In this document: positions 48,023 to 53,538 of the stretch, one piece after another
How the letters are laid out: each line of letters opens with the position of its first letter
How positions within the stretch are numbered: position 1 is the stretch's first letter
Assembly: GCF_946892675.1 (NCBI RefSeq)
Contig: NZ_CAMPOV010000001.1
Span: 1,152,033-1,216,032 of the forward strand
Origin: Arthrobacter sp. Marseille-P9274
Lineage (GTDB): Bacteria > Actinomycetota > Actinomycetes > Actinomycetales > Micrococcaceae
DNA: 64,000 bases
Direction: 5' to 3'
The notes under the pieces: generated by a model
The model's database searches: none
Told to the model about the DNA's origin: nothing
What the model saw: the letters and a program-made list of their open reading frames with translations, nothing else
Position numbers and translations under genes: made by a program

Positions 48023-51000
48023 ATGACTTCCTCGAGCTACTTCCGTTACCCGCACCTGCATGCCGGCCTTGTCACGTTCATCGCCGAAGATGATGTCTGG
48101 GTCGCGCCGGTCGACGGAGGACGGGCCTGGCGGGTCTCGTCTTTGCAGCTGCCGGCGAGGAATCCCCGGTTCTCCCCGGACGGCTCGCAGATCGCCTGGA
48201 GCGTGGTGCAGGGGAGCGCCCCGGAAGCAGTCGCGGCATCGACCGACGGCGGCGACTTCCGCCAGCTGACGTACTGGGGCCACCCCACGACCCGGATGAA
48301 GGGCTTCACCGCAGCCGGCGAGGCGATCGTGACCAGCGCCTTCCAGCGCGAAGAGTCGCGCCACACCTGGGCTCACGCCGTGCCGCTCGACGGCGCCGTT
48401 CCCCGCTTGCTGAACTTCGGGCCGCTCGACACGATTGCGTTCGGCCCGTCGGTCGGCGACGAGCGGCCGGTGGTGGTCGGCAGCGTCCTGTCACGGGAAC
48501 CGGCGTGGTGGAAGCGGTACCGCGGCGGAACGGCCGGCAAGCTCTGGATCGACCGGGACGGCTCGGGGCAGTTCGCCCGGCTGGTTCCGCAGCTGAACGG
48601 CAACCTGACGGATCCGATGTGGATCGGCGGCCGGGTGGCTTTCCTCAGCGACCATGAAGGATACGGCAACCTGTACTCGGTGCTGCCCGACGGCAGCGGC
48701 CTCCGCCGCCACACGGACCACGAGGACTTCTACGTCCGGCACGCTGCCACCGACGGACAGCGTGTGGTGTTCGAATCCGCGGGCGAACTGTGGCTGGCCG
48801 AGGATCTGGACGCGGAGCCCCGCAAGCTCGAACTGACACTGGGGTCCGCTTCCACGGGCCGCCGCCGCCGTCCGCTCAACGTCGAACGCCACCTCGCCGC
48901 GGCCGTCCCCAACCGGGACGGTTCTGCCTCCGTGGTGGAGACCCACGGCACCGTCCATTGGCTGACCCACCGGGACGGGCCATCACGGGTCGTCGAGGCG
49001 GCTCCCGGGGTGCGTGCCCGCTTGGCCCGCCCGCTCGGCGACGACGCCGTCATCTACGTGGCGGACCACGGGGGAGCGGAGGCACTCTACGTGCGCCGCG
49101 TCTTCGACGACCTGCCGCTGCAGGACGCCGAGCCACAGGTCGGCGGTGCAGTCCCCGCGTCCGAGGAGGCCAACCCCCTGCCCCAGCCGGTATCGGCTTC
49201 GGCGGTGCTGGGCGGCACCTCGGTCGCCCTGGCTCCGGCGCCGGCCGTAGCAGCCGGATCCGCCGGTCCCCAGTCAGGCCGGTCCTGGTTGGCGGGTGAA
49301 GGAGCCGCCGCCTCCATTCCGGCCCGCAGCGGCGGCGACGGGCCGGTGGCGCCGTCCGGCACCCGGATCGATTTCCCCGAGCGCACGCGTGTCAGCCAGC
49401 TGTGTGCCAGCCCGGACGGCAAGCTTGCGGCCGTGGCAACCGAGTACGGCCAGCTGCTGCTGCTGGACGCGGAGTCCAAGGAGCTGCGGGAACTCGCCTC
49501 CACGGCGCACGGTGCGATCAACGACGTCGTCTTTTCCCCGGACTCGAACTGGGTCCTCTGGAGCGAACCGGTCACCGCCGAGGGGACCCGCACCAGGCTG
49601 CGGATCGGCGCGGCGCGCGGCGGCGACGCCGTCCACGACATCACCGACGGCCGGTTCCGGGACCACTCGCCCGCGTTTACCCCGGACGGGAAGTTCGCCG
49701 CGTTCCTCTCGGAGCGCAGCTTCGACCCGGTCTACGACACCCACAGCTTCGACCTGAGCTTTCCGCAGTCGACCAAACCGTTCCTCGTGGCCCTGGACTC
49801 GACCACGCCCTCGCCCTTTGGCCCGGCGGTCCACGGCACGGTGCCCGAGGCCGAGCCGCGCAACGATGCCGAGGGTGAGGCCGAGGCACAGCCCGCCCGC
49901 ACCGCCGTCGACCCCGTCCAGCTGGCCGGGCGGATCATTCCCATCCCCGTCGCCCAGGGCCGGTACAGCGACTTGAGCGCCGTGGACGGCGCGCTGCTCT
50001 GGCTGGCCAGCGACCTGTCCGGAGTAACCGGCGAGGGCCGCGCCTCCGCGGAGGCACCGGCGGAACCGCACCGGCTCGAACGCTTCGACATCTCCCGGCG
50101 CGAGGTGACCGTGCTGGTGCCTGCGCTCGATTCCTACTTGGTCTCCGGCGACCGCAAGCGCCTGGTCTATGTGAACCAGAAGAAGGTCCGGAGCGTTCCG
50201 GTGGCTGCCAAGGTGGAGGAAGACTCGCCGGAGAACGTCCGGGTGGACCTGAGCCGGATCCGTGTCCAGCTGGAACCGCTGAAGGTCTGGGGGCAGGCCT
50301 TCGACGAGGCCTGGCGGCTGCAGCGCGACTTCTTCTGGGCCGAGGACATGGCCGGCCTGGACTGGGAGCAGGTCTACCGCCGGTACCGGCCGCTCGTCGA
50401 CAGGCTGGGATCGCACGACGACCTCGTGGATCTGCTGTGGGAACTGCACGGCGAACTCGGCACCTCCCACGCCTACGTCACGCCGGCGCCGGCTGCCGAG
50501 GCTGGCGCCGGAAAGCAGGGCCTGCTGGGAGCCGACCTGGCCAGCACACCGGCCGGCTGGGCGGTGCAGCGCATCCTGGCGGGGGAGTCCTCTGATCCGC
50601 TGGCCCGGTCCCCGCTGGCCGCCCCCGGGGCGGGCGTGAAGCCGGGGGATATCGTCGCTGCCGTCGACGGCGTCCCGGTGGACCGCCGCACGGGGCCGGC
50701 CCCGCTGCTGTCCGGGGCGGCCGGCAAGACCGTCGAGCTGACCATCGTCCATGGCCCCGACAGTGCGGAGCCGGGCAGGCAGCGCCGCATCGCCGTCGTG
50801 CCGATCAGTGACGAGGAAAGGCTGCGGTACCAGAACTGGGTCGCCGGCAACCGGCGGATCGTCCAGGAGGCGTCCGAGGGCCGCTTCGGGTACCTGCACA
50901 TTCCGGACATGGTCGCCCGCGGCTGGTCACAGCTGCACCGTGACCTGGATGTGGAGACGGCCCGGGACGCGCTGATCATCGATGTCCGCAGCAACCGCGG

Positions 51001-51520
51001 CGGCCATACCTCGCAGCTGGTGGCGGAGCTGATCGGGCGCAAGGTTACCGCCTGGAACCTCGCGCGCGGGGAACAGCCCGGTACGTATCCGGCCCACGCG
51101 CCACGCGGTCCCGTCGTCATGCTGACCGATGAGTACGCCGGTTCGGACGGCGACATCATCACGCAGGTGGCCAAACTCCGCGGCATCGGGCCGGTCGTCG
51201 GCACACGGACCTGGGGAGGCGTCGTCGGCATCGACGGCCGCTTCTCGCTGGTGGACGGCACCGGGGTCACCCAGCCCCGCTACGCCTTCTGGTTCACCCA
51301 GGGCGTCGGCTGGAGCGTGGAGAATTACGGAGTCGAACCAGACATCGAGGTGCCCTTCCCTCCGCATGCCTATGCCGCCGGCGAGGACCCGCAGCTGGAG
51401 CACGGCGTAGGCATCCTCAAGGAGATGCTCCAGGAACTGCCGACCGACCGGCCCCCGGCGCTGGCGGGCTACCCCGCCCTGCGGACCGCGCCGCTGCCGC
51501 CCCGTCCCCAGGGCAACTGA
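48023..51520 (+). CDS. Tricorn-type serine protease (S41)
   Basis: A 1165-residue homologue of tricorn protease, which cleaves peptides released by the proteasome. N-terminal beta-propeller repeats (HAGLVTFIAEDDVWVAPVDGGRAWRVS, NPRFSPDGSQIAWS) run to about residue 730. The C1 region holds His816 (GTSHAYV), a PDZ-like domain follows (GVKPGDIVAAVDGVPVD), and the C2 region has the nucleophile Ser1041 (YAGSDGD) and TWGGVVG. The catalytic residues are intact. An Ala/Pro/Gly-rich insertion of about 80 residues (about 370-450) interrupts the propeller. No signal peptide is seen. Its terminator is split by the IS element downstream. Confidence 0.88.
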   Translation: MTSSSYFRYPHLHAGLVTFIAEDDVWVAPVDGGRAWRVSSLQLPARNPRFSPDGSQIAWSVVQGSAPEAVAASTDGGDFRQLTYWGHPTTRMKGFTAAGEAIVTSAFQREESRHTWAHAVPLDGAVPRLLNFGPLDTIAFGPSVGDERPVVVGSVLSREPAWWKRYRGGTAGKLWIDRDGSGQFARLVPQLNGNLTDPMWIGGRVAFLSDHEGYGNLYSVLPDGSGLRRHTDHEDFYVRHAATDGQRVVFESAGELWLAEDLDAEPRKLELTLGSASTGRRRRPLNVERHLAAAVPNRDGSASVVETHGTVHWLTHRDGPSRVVEAAPGVRARLARPLGDDAVIYVADHGGAEALYVRRVFDDLPLQDAEPQVGGAVPASEEANPLPQPVSASAVLGGTSVALAPAPAVAAGSAGPQSGRSWLAGEGAAASIPARSGGDGPVAPSGTRIDFPERTRVSQLCASPDGKLAAVATEYGQLLLLDAESKELRELASTAHGAINDVVFSPDSNWVLWSEPVTAEGTRTRLRIGAARGGDAVHDITDGRFRDHSPAFTPDGKFAAFLSERSFDPVYDTHSFDLSFPQSTKPFLVALDSTTPSPFGPAVHGTVPEAEPRNDAEGEAEAQPARTAVDPVQLAGRIIPIPVAQGRYSDLSAVDGALLWLASDLSGVTGEGRASAEAPAEPHRLERFDISRREVTVLVPALDSYLVSGDRKRLVYVNQKKVRSVPVAAKVEEDSPENVRVDLSRIRVQLEPLKVWGQAFDEAWRLQRDFFWAEDMAGLDWEQVYRRYRPLVDRLGSHDDLVDLLWELHGELGTSHAYVTPAPAAEAGAGKQGLLGADLASTPAGWAVQRILAGESSDPLARSPLAAPGAGVKPGDIVAAVDGVPVDRRTGPAPLLSGAAGKTVELTIVHGPDSAEPGRQRRIAVVPISDEERLRYQNWVAGNRRIVQEASEGRFGYLHIPDMVARGWSQLHRDLDVETARDALIIDVRSNRGGHTSQLVAELIGRKVTAWNLARGEQPGTYPAHAPRGPVVMLTDEYAGSDGDIITQVAKLRGIGPVVGTRTWGGVVGIDGRFSLVDGTGVTQPRYAFWFTQGVGWSVENYGVEPDIEVPFPPHAYAAGEDPQLEHGVGILKEMLQELPTDRPPALAGYPALRTAPLPPRPQGN

Positions 51521-51556: not shown

Positions 51557-51570
51557 GAGGGCCCGGCGCA
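51557..51570. terminator. Left half of the split tricorn/OsmC terminator
   Basis: GAGGGCCCGGCGCA, the exact complement of 53020-53033. Removing the IS element and one TCCA copy restores a 14-bp stem with the 6-nt loop ATCCAA between the two convergent genes. Confidence 0.85.
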
Positions 51571-51571
51571 A

Positions 51572-51575
51572 TCCA
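51572..51575. repeat. Target site duplication TCCA, left copy
   Basis: TCCA directly precedes the left inverted repeat and recurs directly after the right one at 53015-53018. Confidence 0.8.
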
Positions 51576-51608
51576 TGAAGTGCTCCCCGGAAGTTGGACT
51601 GAGAAATT
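51576..51608. repeat. IS left inverted repeat
   Basis: It begins TGAAGTGCTCCCCGGAAG and matches the complement of 52982-53014 at 27 of 33 positions. Confidence 0.88.
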
Positions 51609-51635
51609 CAGTTCCGACATCCGGGGAGCACTTTT
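51581..51635 (+). promoter_or_regulatory. Hairpin over the transposase ribosome site
   Basis: TGCTCCCCGG (51581-51590) pairs perfectly with CCGGGGAGCA (51621-51630), and the inner 20 nt pair imperfectly around GAAAT. GGGGAG in the right arm is the ribosome site of orfA, 7 nt before its ATG. CTTTT follows the stem. Transcripts entering from outside would fold it, while transcripts begun inside the left arm would not. Confidence 0.7.
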
Positions 51636-52124
51636 ATGTATGCACGTAGTTCGTTGTCGGTTGTGCAGCGGGAGGCCGCTGTAGCGTGGTTCGAGAAGGG
51701 CATCGCAGATACGGCGACCGCAACCATACTGGGCGTGGCCCGCTGGCCGGTTAGGCACCTTTATCGGCGGTGGAGGATCCATGGTCGAGGAGCGCTCGTG
51801 GGCAAACCGACAAAAAAGGCGTACTCGTTCGAGTTTAAGCTCGCCTTGGTAGAGAAGTTCCTGGCCGGTGAGAGCGCTTCGGACCTCGCGGCTGAGGCGG
51901 ACCTGTCCTCACCTCGTCTGCTCGAGACATGGGTACGGGTATATCACCGCCAGGGCGCGGACGCCCTGCGTCCGAAGCCTAAAGGCAGACCGAGGAAGCC
52001 CGGCGCTCCACCGCCGGCGGAGCCATCTGAACTGGAGCGGCTGCGCCGGGAGAATGAACGGCTGCGGGCGGAAGTGGCCTACCTGGGAAAATTGCGGGCC
52101 TTGAGGGCACCAAAACAACGGTGA
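51636..52124 (+). CDS. IS3-family transposase OrfA
   Basis: A 162-residue protein with a helix-turn-helix in the first half (REAAVAWFEKGIADTATATILGVARWPVRHLYRRW), a second (KLALVEKFLAGESASDLAAEADLSSPRLLETWVRVY), a Pro/Lys-rich hinge and a C-terminal leucine-zipper-like stretch (ELERLRRENERLRAEVAYLGKL). In IS3 elements OrfA binds the ends and regulates. GGGGAG lies 7 nt before the ATG inside a hairpin. Its TGA overlaps the orfB GTG. An AAAA run in CCAAAACAA near the end is a possible -1 slippage point for an OrfAB fusion. Confidence 0.92.
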   Translation: MYARSSLSVVQREAAVAWFEKGIADTATATILGVARWPVRHLYRRWRIHGRGALVGKPTKKAYSFEFKLALVEKFLAGESASDLAAEADLSSPRLLETWVRVYHRQGADALRPKPKGRPRKPGAPPPAEPSELERLRRENERLRAEVAYLGKLRALRAPKQR

Positions 52125-52975
52125 AGGTTCAGGCCATCATCGCCCTCAAGGCCGACTTTTCGCTGCCGGTTCTGCTGCAGGTCGCCGGCTTGGCCCGTTC
52201 GACGTTCTTCTACCACCAGGCCCGACTCAGGGCTCCCGACCCGAAGGAAGCAGTCAAGAGCGCTGCCACGACCATCTTCACAAAGAACCATGGCAGATAC
52301 GGGCACCGCCGCATCCACACTGAACTGACCCGGCAAGGGTGGACGATCGCGAAGAAGACCGTGCTGAAGCTCATGCGTTCCCTGCAGCTCGTCTGCAAGG
52401 TCCGGCAAAGGAAACGCTACAACTCCTACCAAGGCGAACAGGGCAAAACTGCCCCCAATCTGCTGAACCGGGACTTCGATGCCGATGCCCCGAACCAGAA
52501 GTGGGTAACGGATGTGACCGAGTTCAGAGTCGACGGTCGAAAACTCTACCTCTCACCCGTCATGGACCTTTTCGACCGGCAGATCCTCTCCTACACCGTC
52601 GGCCTGTCCCCGAACCTGGCGCTCACCAACACCTCACTGCGTATGGCGCTGGCAACGCTCGAGTATGGGCAGAAACCGATCGTGCACTCAGACCAGGGAT
52701 TCCAATACCAGCACGCCTCATGGCGGAGACTCCTGCAGGGCGCCAACGCCATCCAATCGATGTCCCGCAAGGGCAACTGCTACGACAACGCAGTGATGGA
52801 AAACTTCTTCGGACACCTCAAGGAAGAGCTCTTCCACCATGTCCGATTCCTCAGCACCGGCGCACTCACATCAGCCATCCACGAATACATCCGCTGGTAC
52901 AACACCGAAAGGATCTCCACAAAGCTTGAGGGCCTGAGCCCGGTGCAATACCGTGCTCAGGCCCTCAAGGTTTAG
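52121..52975 (+). CDS. IS3-family transposase OrfB (DDE catalytic part)
   Basis: A 284-residue frame in -1 relative to orfA. It begins with an HTH_21-like stretch (KNHGRYGHRRIHTELTRQG), followed by the rve integrase core. The catalytic acids are visible in WVTDVTEFRVDGRKLYLSPVMDLF, VHSDQGFQYQH and GNCYDNAVMENFFGHLKEEL. No interruption is seen. It could be made from the GTG at 52121 by coupling or as a frameshifted OrfAB protein. A strong hairpin overlaps its last codons. Confidence 0.94.
   Translation: MKVQAIIALKADFSLPVLLQVAGLARSTFFYHQARLRAPDPKEAVKSAATTIFTKNHGRYGHRRIHTELTRQGWTIAKKTVLKLMRSLQLVCKVRQRKRYNSYQGEQGKTAPNLLNRDFDADAPNQKWVTDVTEFRVDGRKLYLSPVMDLFDRQILSYTVGLSPNLALTNTSLRMALATLEYGQKPIVHSDQGFQYQHASWRRLLQGANAIQSMSRKGNCYDNAVMENFFGHLKEELFHHVRFLSTGALTSAIHEYIRWYNTERISTKLEGLSPVQYRAQALKV
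52925..52969 (+). terminator. IS-borne hairpin at the end of orfB
   Basis: CTTGAGGGCCTGAGC and GCTCAGGCCCTCAAG form a perfect 15-bp stem, extended inside by CGGT/ACCG around GCAAT. It lies within the last orfB codons and just before the stop, so it probably acts as the terminator of the element. Confidence 0.65.
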
Positions 52976-52981
52976 GCTCTT

Positions 52982-53014
52982 AATTACCCAGTCCAGCTTC
53001 AGGGGACCAGTTCA
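52982..53014. repeat. IS right inverted repeat
   Basis: It ends GGGGACCAGTTCA; its complement begins TGAACTGGTCCCCTGAAG, matching the left end at 27 of 33 positions. Confidence 0.88.
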
Positions 53015-53018
53015 TCCA
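53015..53018. repeat. Target site duplication TCCA, right copy
   Basis: Second copy of the 4-bp duplication, directly after the right inverted repeat. Confidence 0.8.
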
Positions 53019-53019
53019 A

Positions 53020-53033
53020 TGCGCCGGGCCCTC
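53020..53033. terminator. Right half of the split tricorn/OsmC terminator
   Basis: TGCGCCGGGCCCTC, complementary over all 14 bases to 51557-51570. It lies 23 nt beyond the OsmC stop codon. Confidence 0.85.
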
Positions 53034-53055: not shown

Positions 53056-53493
53056 TCAGGAATTCAGCGTCGCGTCGAGCGTGATGCTCGGGACCGAGGC
53101 CAGGGCCTTGGAGACGGGGCAGCCTTCCTTGGCGGCCTGGGCGCTCTTCTGGAAGTCGGCGTCGCTGATGCCGGGGACGGTCGCCTTGACGATCAGGCGG
53201 ATCTCGCTGATCTGCGGCCCGTTCGAGGTGTCGAAATCCACCTCGGCGGCGGTCTCGATGCTCTCCGGTGCGTGGCCGGCCTCCTTGAGGATGTTGCTGA
53301 AGGCCATGGAGAAGCAGGCCGAGTGGGCAGCGGCGATCATCTCCTCCGGGCTGGTCTTGTCCTTGGCGTCCTCGGCGCGGGCCTTCCAGGTGACGTCGTA
53401 GGTGCCCAGGCCGGAAGTATCGAGGGAAGTCTGGCCGGAGCCGGAGAAGAGGTCGCCCTTCCAGACGGTGTGGGCCGAACGTGTTGTAGCCAT
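53056..53493 (-). CDS. OsmC-family peroxiredoxin
   Basis: A 145-residue OsmC/Ohr-fold protein. The two redox cysteines are in AAHSACFSMAF (about residue 60) and KEGCPVSKAL (about residue 126), with SPEEMIAAAHSAC and SGLGTYDVTWKAR typical of the OsmC branch (OsmC-like hydroperoxide reductase rather than Ohr). It should reduce organic hydroperoxides in the cytoplasm. The ATG at 53493 has AAGGAG 5 nt upstream. A 20-bp GC palindrome lies 46-65 nt upstream of the start. Confidence 0.87.
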   Translation of the reverse strand: MATTRSAHTVWKGDLFSGSGQTSLDTSGLGTYDVTWKARAEDAKDKTSPEEMIAAAHSACFSMAFSNILKEAGHAPESIETAAEVDFDTSNGPQISEIRLIVKATVPGISDADFQKSAQAAKEGCPVSKALASVPSITLDATLNS

Positions 53494-53538
53494 GTGCACT
53501 CCTTGCGTAGGAATCGTCCTGTTGTGCTTCTTCCTTCA

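Follow-up and report, generated by a model that had tools for sequence, protein, structure and literature searches.

Hairpin loops as probable preferred insertion sites of an IS150-like element of the IS3 family and its relatives

The transposition machinery of an IS150-like element of the IS3 family and of its relatives very probably prefers hairpin-forming inverted repeats, joins the element ends in or next to the loop and duplicates 3–4 bases there, with the dyad or the fold being read and not the sequence, and the element's own hairpins probably take over termination. In the window, the whole stretch of 64,000 nucleotides of Arthrobacter sp. Marseille-P9274 DNA that was analysed, an IS3-family element of 1,439 bp occupied positions 51576–53014, with TCCA duplicated on either side (51572–51575 and 53015–53018, from sequence and end analysis). 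Outside the duplications lay the host arms GAGGGCCCGGCGCA (51557–51570, plus strand) and TGCGCCGGGCCCTC (53020–53033, plus strand), and reading and folding of the sequence confirmed the statement of an earlier note on this DNA that the two are exactly complementary. Removal of the element and one TCCA gave a perfect 14-bp stem with the loop ATCCAA, as that note had described, and the insertion was centred on it (dyad offset 0, score 40). The 3′ end of a tricorn-protease-like gene (48023–51520, plus strand; ORF with the Pfam domains PDZ_Tricorn, Tricorn_C1 and Peptidase_S41) points toward the insertion, and the gene on the other side, coding for an OsmC-family peroxiredoxin (53056–53499, minus strand; ORF and OsmC domain), is convergent with it, again in agreement with the note. 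The view that centring in the loop was unlikely by chance was upheld as well: against the score of 40 at the window site, among 6120 random positions in the flanks of related elements, 1.65% had a hairpin that scored at least 20 and was centred within 6 bp.

The element itself showed the organization of the IS3 family, with two overlapping ORFs of the plus strand, orfA (51636–52124, 162 aa, HTH_28 and HTH_Tnp_1 by domain search) and orfB (52121–52975, 284 aa, an IS3-type DDE transposase with rve, rve_2 and HTH_21). End analysis placed the TG...CA terminal inverted repeats (TGAAGTGCTCCCC / GGGGACCAGTTCA) at 51576–51600 and 52990–53014 of the plus strand, and the TCCA duplication is within the 3–5 bp expected for the family. 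OrfB matched the NCBIfam model transpos_IS3 with 322.7 bits (cut-off 160), and the residues D129, D189 and E225, the last two separated by 35 residues, were invariant across 18 aligned OrfB proteins. Folding detected two hairpins on the plus strand of the element. One is terminator-like (51578–51635, 21-bp arms with 2 mismatches) and consists of the left inverted repeat and a second copy further along, with TTTT just before the ATG of orfA; the other is located at the 3′ end of orfB (52921–52973, 24-bp arms with 2 mismatches, loop gcaat). Among 76 distinct elements, internal hairpins scoring at least 24 were present on the left in 27/29, 26/41 and 3/6 elements (shuffles, 0–0.2%) and on the right, at the end of orfB, in 26/29, 21/41 and 4/6 (shuffles, 0.6–2.8%). 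Judged from their sequence, these internal hairpins may terminate transcription, and they may replace the terminator split by the insertion and protect the transposase genes against transcription that enters from outside.

When osmC plus its 3′ end served as the query, the locus was recovered from all 10 genomes of the genus, the own genome included. The earlier note expected the predicted hairpin in a strain with an empty site, and the orthologous hairpin was indeed present in a genome of the same genus (G006, locus L410) that shares 95% identity across osmC and the 3′ end of this gene; the IS is absent there and AGGGCCCGGCGC-atcatggatg-GCGCCGGGCCCT, with a stem of 12 bp, stands at the orthologous place. 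In L411, L412 and L414–L418 a hairpin was seen directly 3′ of osmC, with different stems whose arms vary together, for example GAAGGACCCCGG/CCGGGGTCCTTC in L414 and GAAGAACCCCGG/CCGGGGTTCTTC in L418. These were identified by eye; the automatic scan took only even loops of up to 10 nt and picked the correct hairpin only in L410, and L411 is badly placed in the alignment of the post-osmC terminators. The hairpin after osmC is thus older than the element, and its structure has been maintained in 8 of 9 relatives, L413 being doubtful.

The own genome contained eight copies of the element (five full, two interrupted by a nested element and one internally deleted) and short relics. Eight of the nine assessable copies, that is, the eight and the relic L012, were found in or at the edge of a hairpin loop with scores of 31–53, and the stems were different in every case. 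The duplication of L006 lies at the loop edge and not within the loop, and L005/L011 has an uncertain terminal base at one of its ends. Copy L007 has an intact TAT duplication and showed no strong hairpin. The same foreign element was observed at the same internal position in L004+L010 and in L005+L011, which occupy two different hairpins, and a broken copy therefore seems to have moved via the transposase of intact copies.

For the wider survey we scored each site by an ungapped inverted repeat (G-C 3, A-T 2, mismatch −4.5, loop of at most 16 nt, dyad no more than 6 bp from the centre of the duplication), with a threshold of 20. This score replaced a combination of 60-nt minimum free energy and a count of spanning pairs, which separated sites poorly from background in GC-rich DNA. 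The element ends were called from inverted repeats and duplications while ignoring hairpins. Relatives in Micrococcaceae came from 53 of 395 genomes with a match, with no more than two candidates scored per genome; the named-genome set comprised the best 80 of a list of limited length obtained with an OrfB profile; and the multi-copy set comprised 80 regions from some of 30 named genomes. The limit of two candidates per genome and the choice of the best 80 mean that the sample is not random. We located 206 elements (62 in Micrococcaceae, 68 in named genomes and 76 in the multi-copy set), from which 153 non-redundant sites were retained after removal of 34 that had no 3-bp duplication or lay near the edge of a stretch, 6 with weak inverted repeats, 10 duplicates and 3 of odd length. 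Loci whose ends could not be found never entered the count, among them 12/80 and 4/80 in two of the sets.

The related elements behind the 153 sites came from at least four phyla. A strong hairpin (score of at least 20) centred on the insertion was detected at 118 of these sites, which together with the copies in the own genome bears out the proposal that other copies should sit at dyad-symmetric sites. By set, the numbers were 38/48 in Micrococcaceae, 33/44 in the other named genomes and 47/61 in the multi-copy set, and by host the hairpin sites were 16/19 in Vibrionales, 10/11 in Burkholderia (A-type elements) and 5/10 counted in Pseudomonas. At 35/153 sites, that of copy L007 in the own genome among them, no hairpin reached 20, and 29/153 scored below 16. 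The hairpin rate fell to 0.7% at 15–30 bp from the insertion and was 3.1% at 31–60 bp, 2.4% at 61–100 bp and 1.7% at 101–150 bp. The gene context of the 118 hairpins, assigned with a crude ORF caller, was convergent in 48, codirectional in 26 and divergent in 7, with 36 inside some ORF and 1 unknown. Landing between convergent genes, which the earlier note had proposed as a general strategy, is thus frequent (48 of the 81 intergenic hairpin sites) and is not a rule. Such positions, where insertions should be cheap, are also what would be expected if the elements inserted anywhere and only harmless insertions at gene ends persisted. Harmlessness, however, cannot centre an insertion on a dyad: hairpins were found at only 0.7–3.1% of positions 15–150 bp away, and the distance between the dyad and the centre of the duplication was 1.5 bp or less in 87/118 (3 bp or less in 103/118). 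Moreover, in the same Burkholderia genome that gave 10/11 for A-type elements, an IS407-like element gave 0/9 hairpin sites, of which one is without TG...CA ends and three are without a duplication. We regard persistence of harmless insertions as a scarcely credible explanation of the centring.

The geometry of the sites and their sequences led us to favour recognition of the dyad. The 118 hairpins had a median stem of 14 bp and a median loop of 4 nt, and placement of the insertion was roughly symmetric about the dyad. The duplication overlapped the loop in 102/118 and was entirely inside it in 64/118. A duplication of 3–4 bp was present at 149/153 sites, those without at least 3 bp having been removed beforehand. 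The length of the duplication matched the parity of the loop in 56 of the 77 sites no more than 1 bp from the dyad (p = 8e-5); over all hairpins the match was weak (73/118, p = 0.013). Distinct 12-nt left arms were found at 115 of 118 hairpin sites, with 0.05–0.46 bit per column, so the dyad or the fold, and not the sequence, appears to be read. Accordingly, the part of the earlier expectation that concerned hairpin loops held, and the part that concerned TCCA-like centres did not. It could still be argued that a GC-rich core between A- and T-tracts is recognized and that the hairpin is incidental, as there are weak trends in the arms (the left arm is C-rich close to the loop and A-rich outside) and sites assembled from the left flank of one insertion and the right flank of another reached the threshold in 107/3047 cases, or 3.5%, above the background of 1.65%. 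But 3.5% is far below the 77% at real sites, the arms differ with columns of at most 0.46 bit, 29/38 hairpin sites in Micrococcaceae are without T- or A-runs, and REP-like palindromes are targets as well; recognition of sequence or composition is accordingly very unlikely in our judgement. Insertions are placed symmetrically, duplication length matches loop parity where the centring is good, and the sites share no sequence consensus; together these features point to recognition of the dyad or its folded form.

The earlier note took the target to be an intrinsic terminator. Many sites are terminator-like, and a T-run and/or A-run of at least 4 flanked 74/118 hairpins (9/38 in Micrococcaceae and 65/80 elsewhere); the proposal was too narrow in that hairpins in general are hit, including REP-like palindromes in Pseudomonas, where the copies of one genome (G411) are in or near a shared REP-like palindrome. 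Because no T- or A-run of at least 4 was present at 44/118 hairpins (29/38 in Micrococcaceae), a terminator function at these is presumptive. The 65/80 terminator-like sites outside Micrococcaceae are what one would expect if the transposase followed RNA polymerase during pausing or termination, or the hairpin in the nascent RNA, and not folded DNA. Against such a link to transcription stand the use of REP-like palindromes and of hairpins without T-runs, the roughly symmetric placement about the dyad, and the orientation of the elements relative to the T-run, which showed no clear bias (20 against 9, p = 0.06), although there may be one. We consider targeting through transcription unlikely.

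Our preferred reading remains that the dyad or fold in DNA is recognized. The transposition machinery would pick inverted repeats able to fold, with stems and loops of the median sizes given above, and would join the ends in or beside the loop with duplication of 3–4 bases. With recognition of this kind, intrinsic terminators would be hit often, and REP-like palindromes would be hit in some hosts. The insertion would split the host hairpin, and the left-end hairpin of the element, often followed by T, and the hairpin at the orfB end would probably take over termination, which would make the insertion cheap. We infer that the transposase recognizes DNA that is extruded or folds transiently; from the sequences, cruciform DNA, a hairpin in single-stranded DNA, or help from termination complexes or polymerase would all be compatible with the data. 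A circular intermediate has been reported for IS150, and we speculate that the abutted inverted repeats of such an intermediate would form a dyad similar to the target. A broader reading, which we offer tentatively and which has perhaps one chance in three by our own estimate of its merits, is that a large multi-phylum branch of the IS3 family reads DNA shape and takes almost any short-loop dyad, perhaps as the circular intermediate, its inverted repeats abutted with a 3–4 bp spacer, is such a dyad; symmetric strand transfers would then make the duplication length follow loop parity at well-centred sites, and the host terminator would be replaced by the element's own.

As controls in silico we took 40 regions that encode other IS3-family transposases, drawn from genomes of the same kind, and 39 of them gave a row. 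With the same requirement of TG...CA ends and a duplication of at least 3 bp, 0/16 sites of the other IS3 elements scored 20 or more, these controls being few and from a small number of genomes. When the end criteria were waived, 3/39 rows reached 20 (L391, L393 and L406); all three are without TG...CA ends, and their ends are therefore doubtful. In the OrfB tree, IS2, IS3, the IS407-like elements and B-type elements formed a separate branch, on which a second terminator-associated group was also placed, and the IS150 clade had a support of 80/69; the loop-hitting elements were spread over the A-type side of this tree, whose root is arbitrary and in which L071, L094 and L100 are artefactual long branches. 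The hosts in the tree were Actinomycetota, Bacillota, Bacteroidota and Pseudomonadota. IS150 of E. coli is like the A-type elements in falling on the same side of the OrfB tree, in its similar ends and in its 3-bp duplication at most sites examined. Unlike them, it showed a strong hairpin at 0/11 distinct sites, in a test set consisting of E. coli records, and was often found at toxin-antitoxin loci; the loop habit is therefore not universal on the A-type side of the tree. A search of Enterobacteriaceae (0/149 genomes, with no more than two candidates each) was uninformative. As a separate observation, 15 of the 18 fetched regions with E. coli IS150 were at type I toxin-antitoxin loci (hokA, hokB, plasmid hok/mok and ibs) in different strains and plasmids (L208, L211, L213, L214, L357–L363 and L365–L368), several being the same site in different strains.

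Several variants and other modes of insertion were recorded during this work. In the 2.77-kb relatives L098 and L101, genes for an ArsR-type regulator and for cation efflux lie between the inverted repeats (by Pfam in L098 and by ORF similarity in L101), and the relatives L074, L075 and L089 (1.93–2.04 kb) have extra DNA after orfB. A hairpin AAGAAGGCTCCGTCCCA..TGGGACGGAGCCTTCTT is located near the right end of L074 and L075, and a 103-aa ORF of L075 had no Pfam match. The longer variants L098, L101, L074 and L075 were also in hairpin loops, with 3-bp duplications in L098 and L101. The extra ORF beside L063, considered as a possible passenger, proved to be a mutator-type transposase, and L063, L069, L073 and L077 were left uncounted. 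L106 and L107 of one genome (G131) are two copies in two members of a long inverted repeat, the arms of which differ by a compensatory change. Elements of another subgroup of the IS3 family, with ends such as TGACCCGTCCTGA / TGTC..GTCCTGA (L383, L384, L386–L389 and L399–L401), were found 7–10 nt after an intrinsic-terminator hairpin at 9/9 sites, with the same end always facing the hairpin and a 3-bp duplication in 8/9. A tenth member, L422 from Acinetobacter, was 11 nt after an intrinsic-terminator hairpin. Placement 7–10 nt after a terminator hairpin is a second terminator-targeting mode. In Cupriavidus (G403), an IS3 relative with the ends TGTAGTGGTC (L369–L371) was positioned at the base of a REP-like palindrome and not in its loop.

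Elements of the IS3 family rank with the most common ones in bacteria. Homing of an entire branch of the family to hairpin loops, if confirmed, would explain how its members multiply with little gene damage and would make insertion sites predictable from sequence. It may also unify the reports of REP targeting, and it would raise the testable question of how a DDE transposase recognizes a fold in duplex DNA. Homing to loops would also matter for how 3′ ends and terminators are interpreted where a genome contains many of these elements. In the papers searched we found neither an account of IS150-like elements that target terminator loops nor one of loop targeting throughout a subgroup, which is weak evidence of novelty. 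Among known systems, the insertion of group IIC introns is guided by terminator stem-loops; these are retroelements that insert beside the hairpin, whereas the element described here relies on a DDE transposase.

Within the IS3 family, the earlier note cited IS1397 and ISKpn1 as REP-targeting precedents, in line with PMC1525189, where IS1397, ISKpn1 and ISPsy8 are associated with REP sequences that have a consensus. The same paper describes the insertion point of ISPsy8 as coinciding with the symmetry axis of a predicted REP hairpin, with what appears to be a 3-bp duplication. By comparison with these consensus REP targets, the elements studied here use unrelated stems (115/118 distinct 12-nt left arms, at most 0.46 bit per column, which is not the REP-specific restriction of the IS1397 type), and REP-like palindromes are one case, that of Pseudomonas G411. 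In our reading, ISPsy8 and the IS3 elements that target REP sequences look like special cases of the loop habit. The closest system in terms of target is that of IS1272 and TnSha1 in staphylococci, for which PMC4923244 and PMC5678879 describe hairpin targets, several of them confirmed transcription terminators, with little conservation of primary sequence, as we observed here. Attack on the loop with duplication of the loop appears in PMC5678879 as a hypothetical pathway. In those accounts IS1272 and TnSha1 insert without target duplication and the hairpin is partly deleted or replaced, whereas the insertions reported here preserve both arms, fall in the loop region and duplicate 3–4 bp; at the window site both arms were retained beside a 4-bp duplication, and the hairpin was present also in the empty-site relative, unlike a stem-loop replacement of the IS1272 type.
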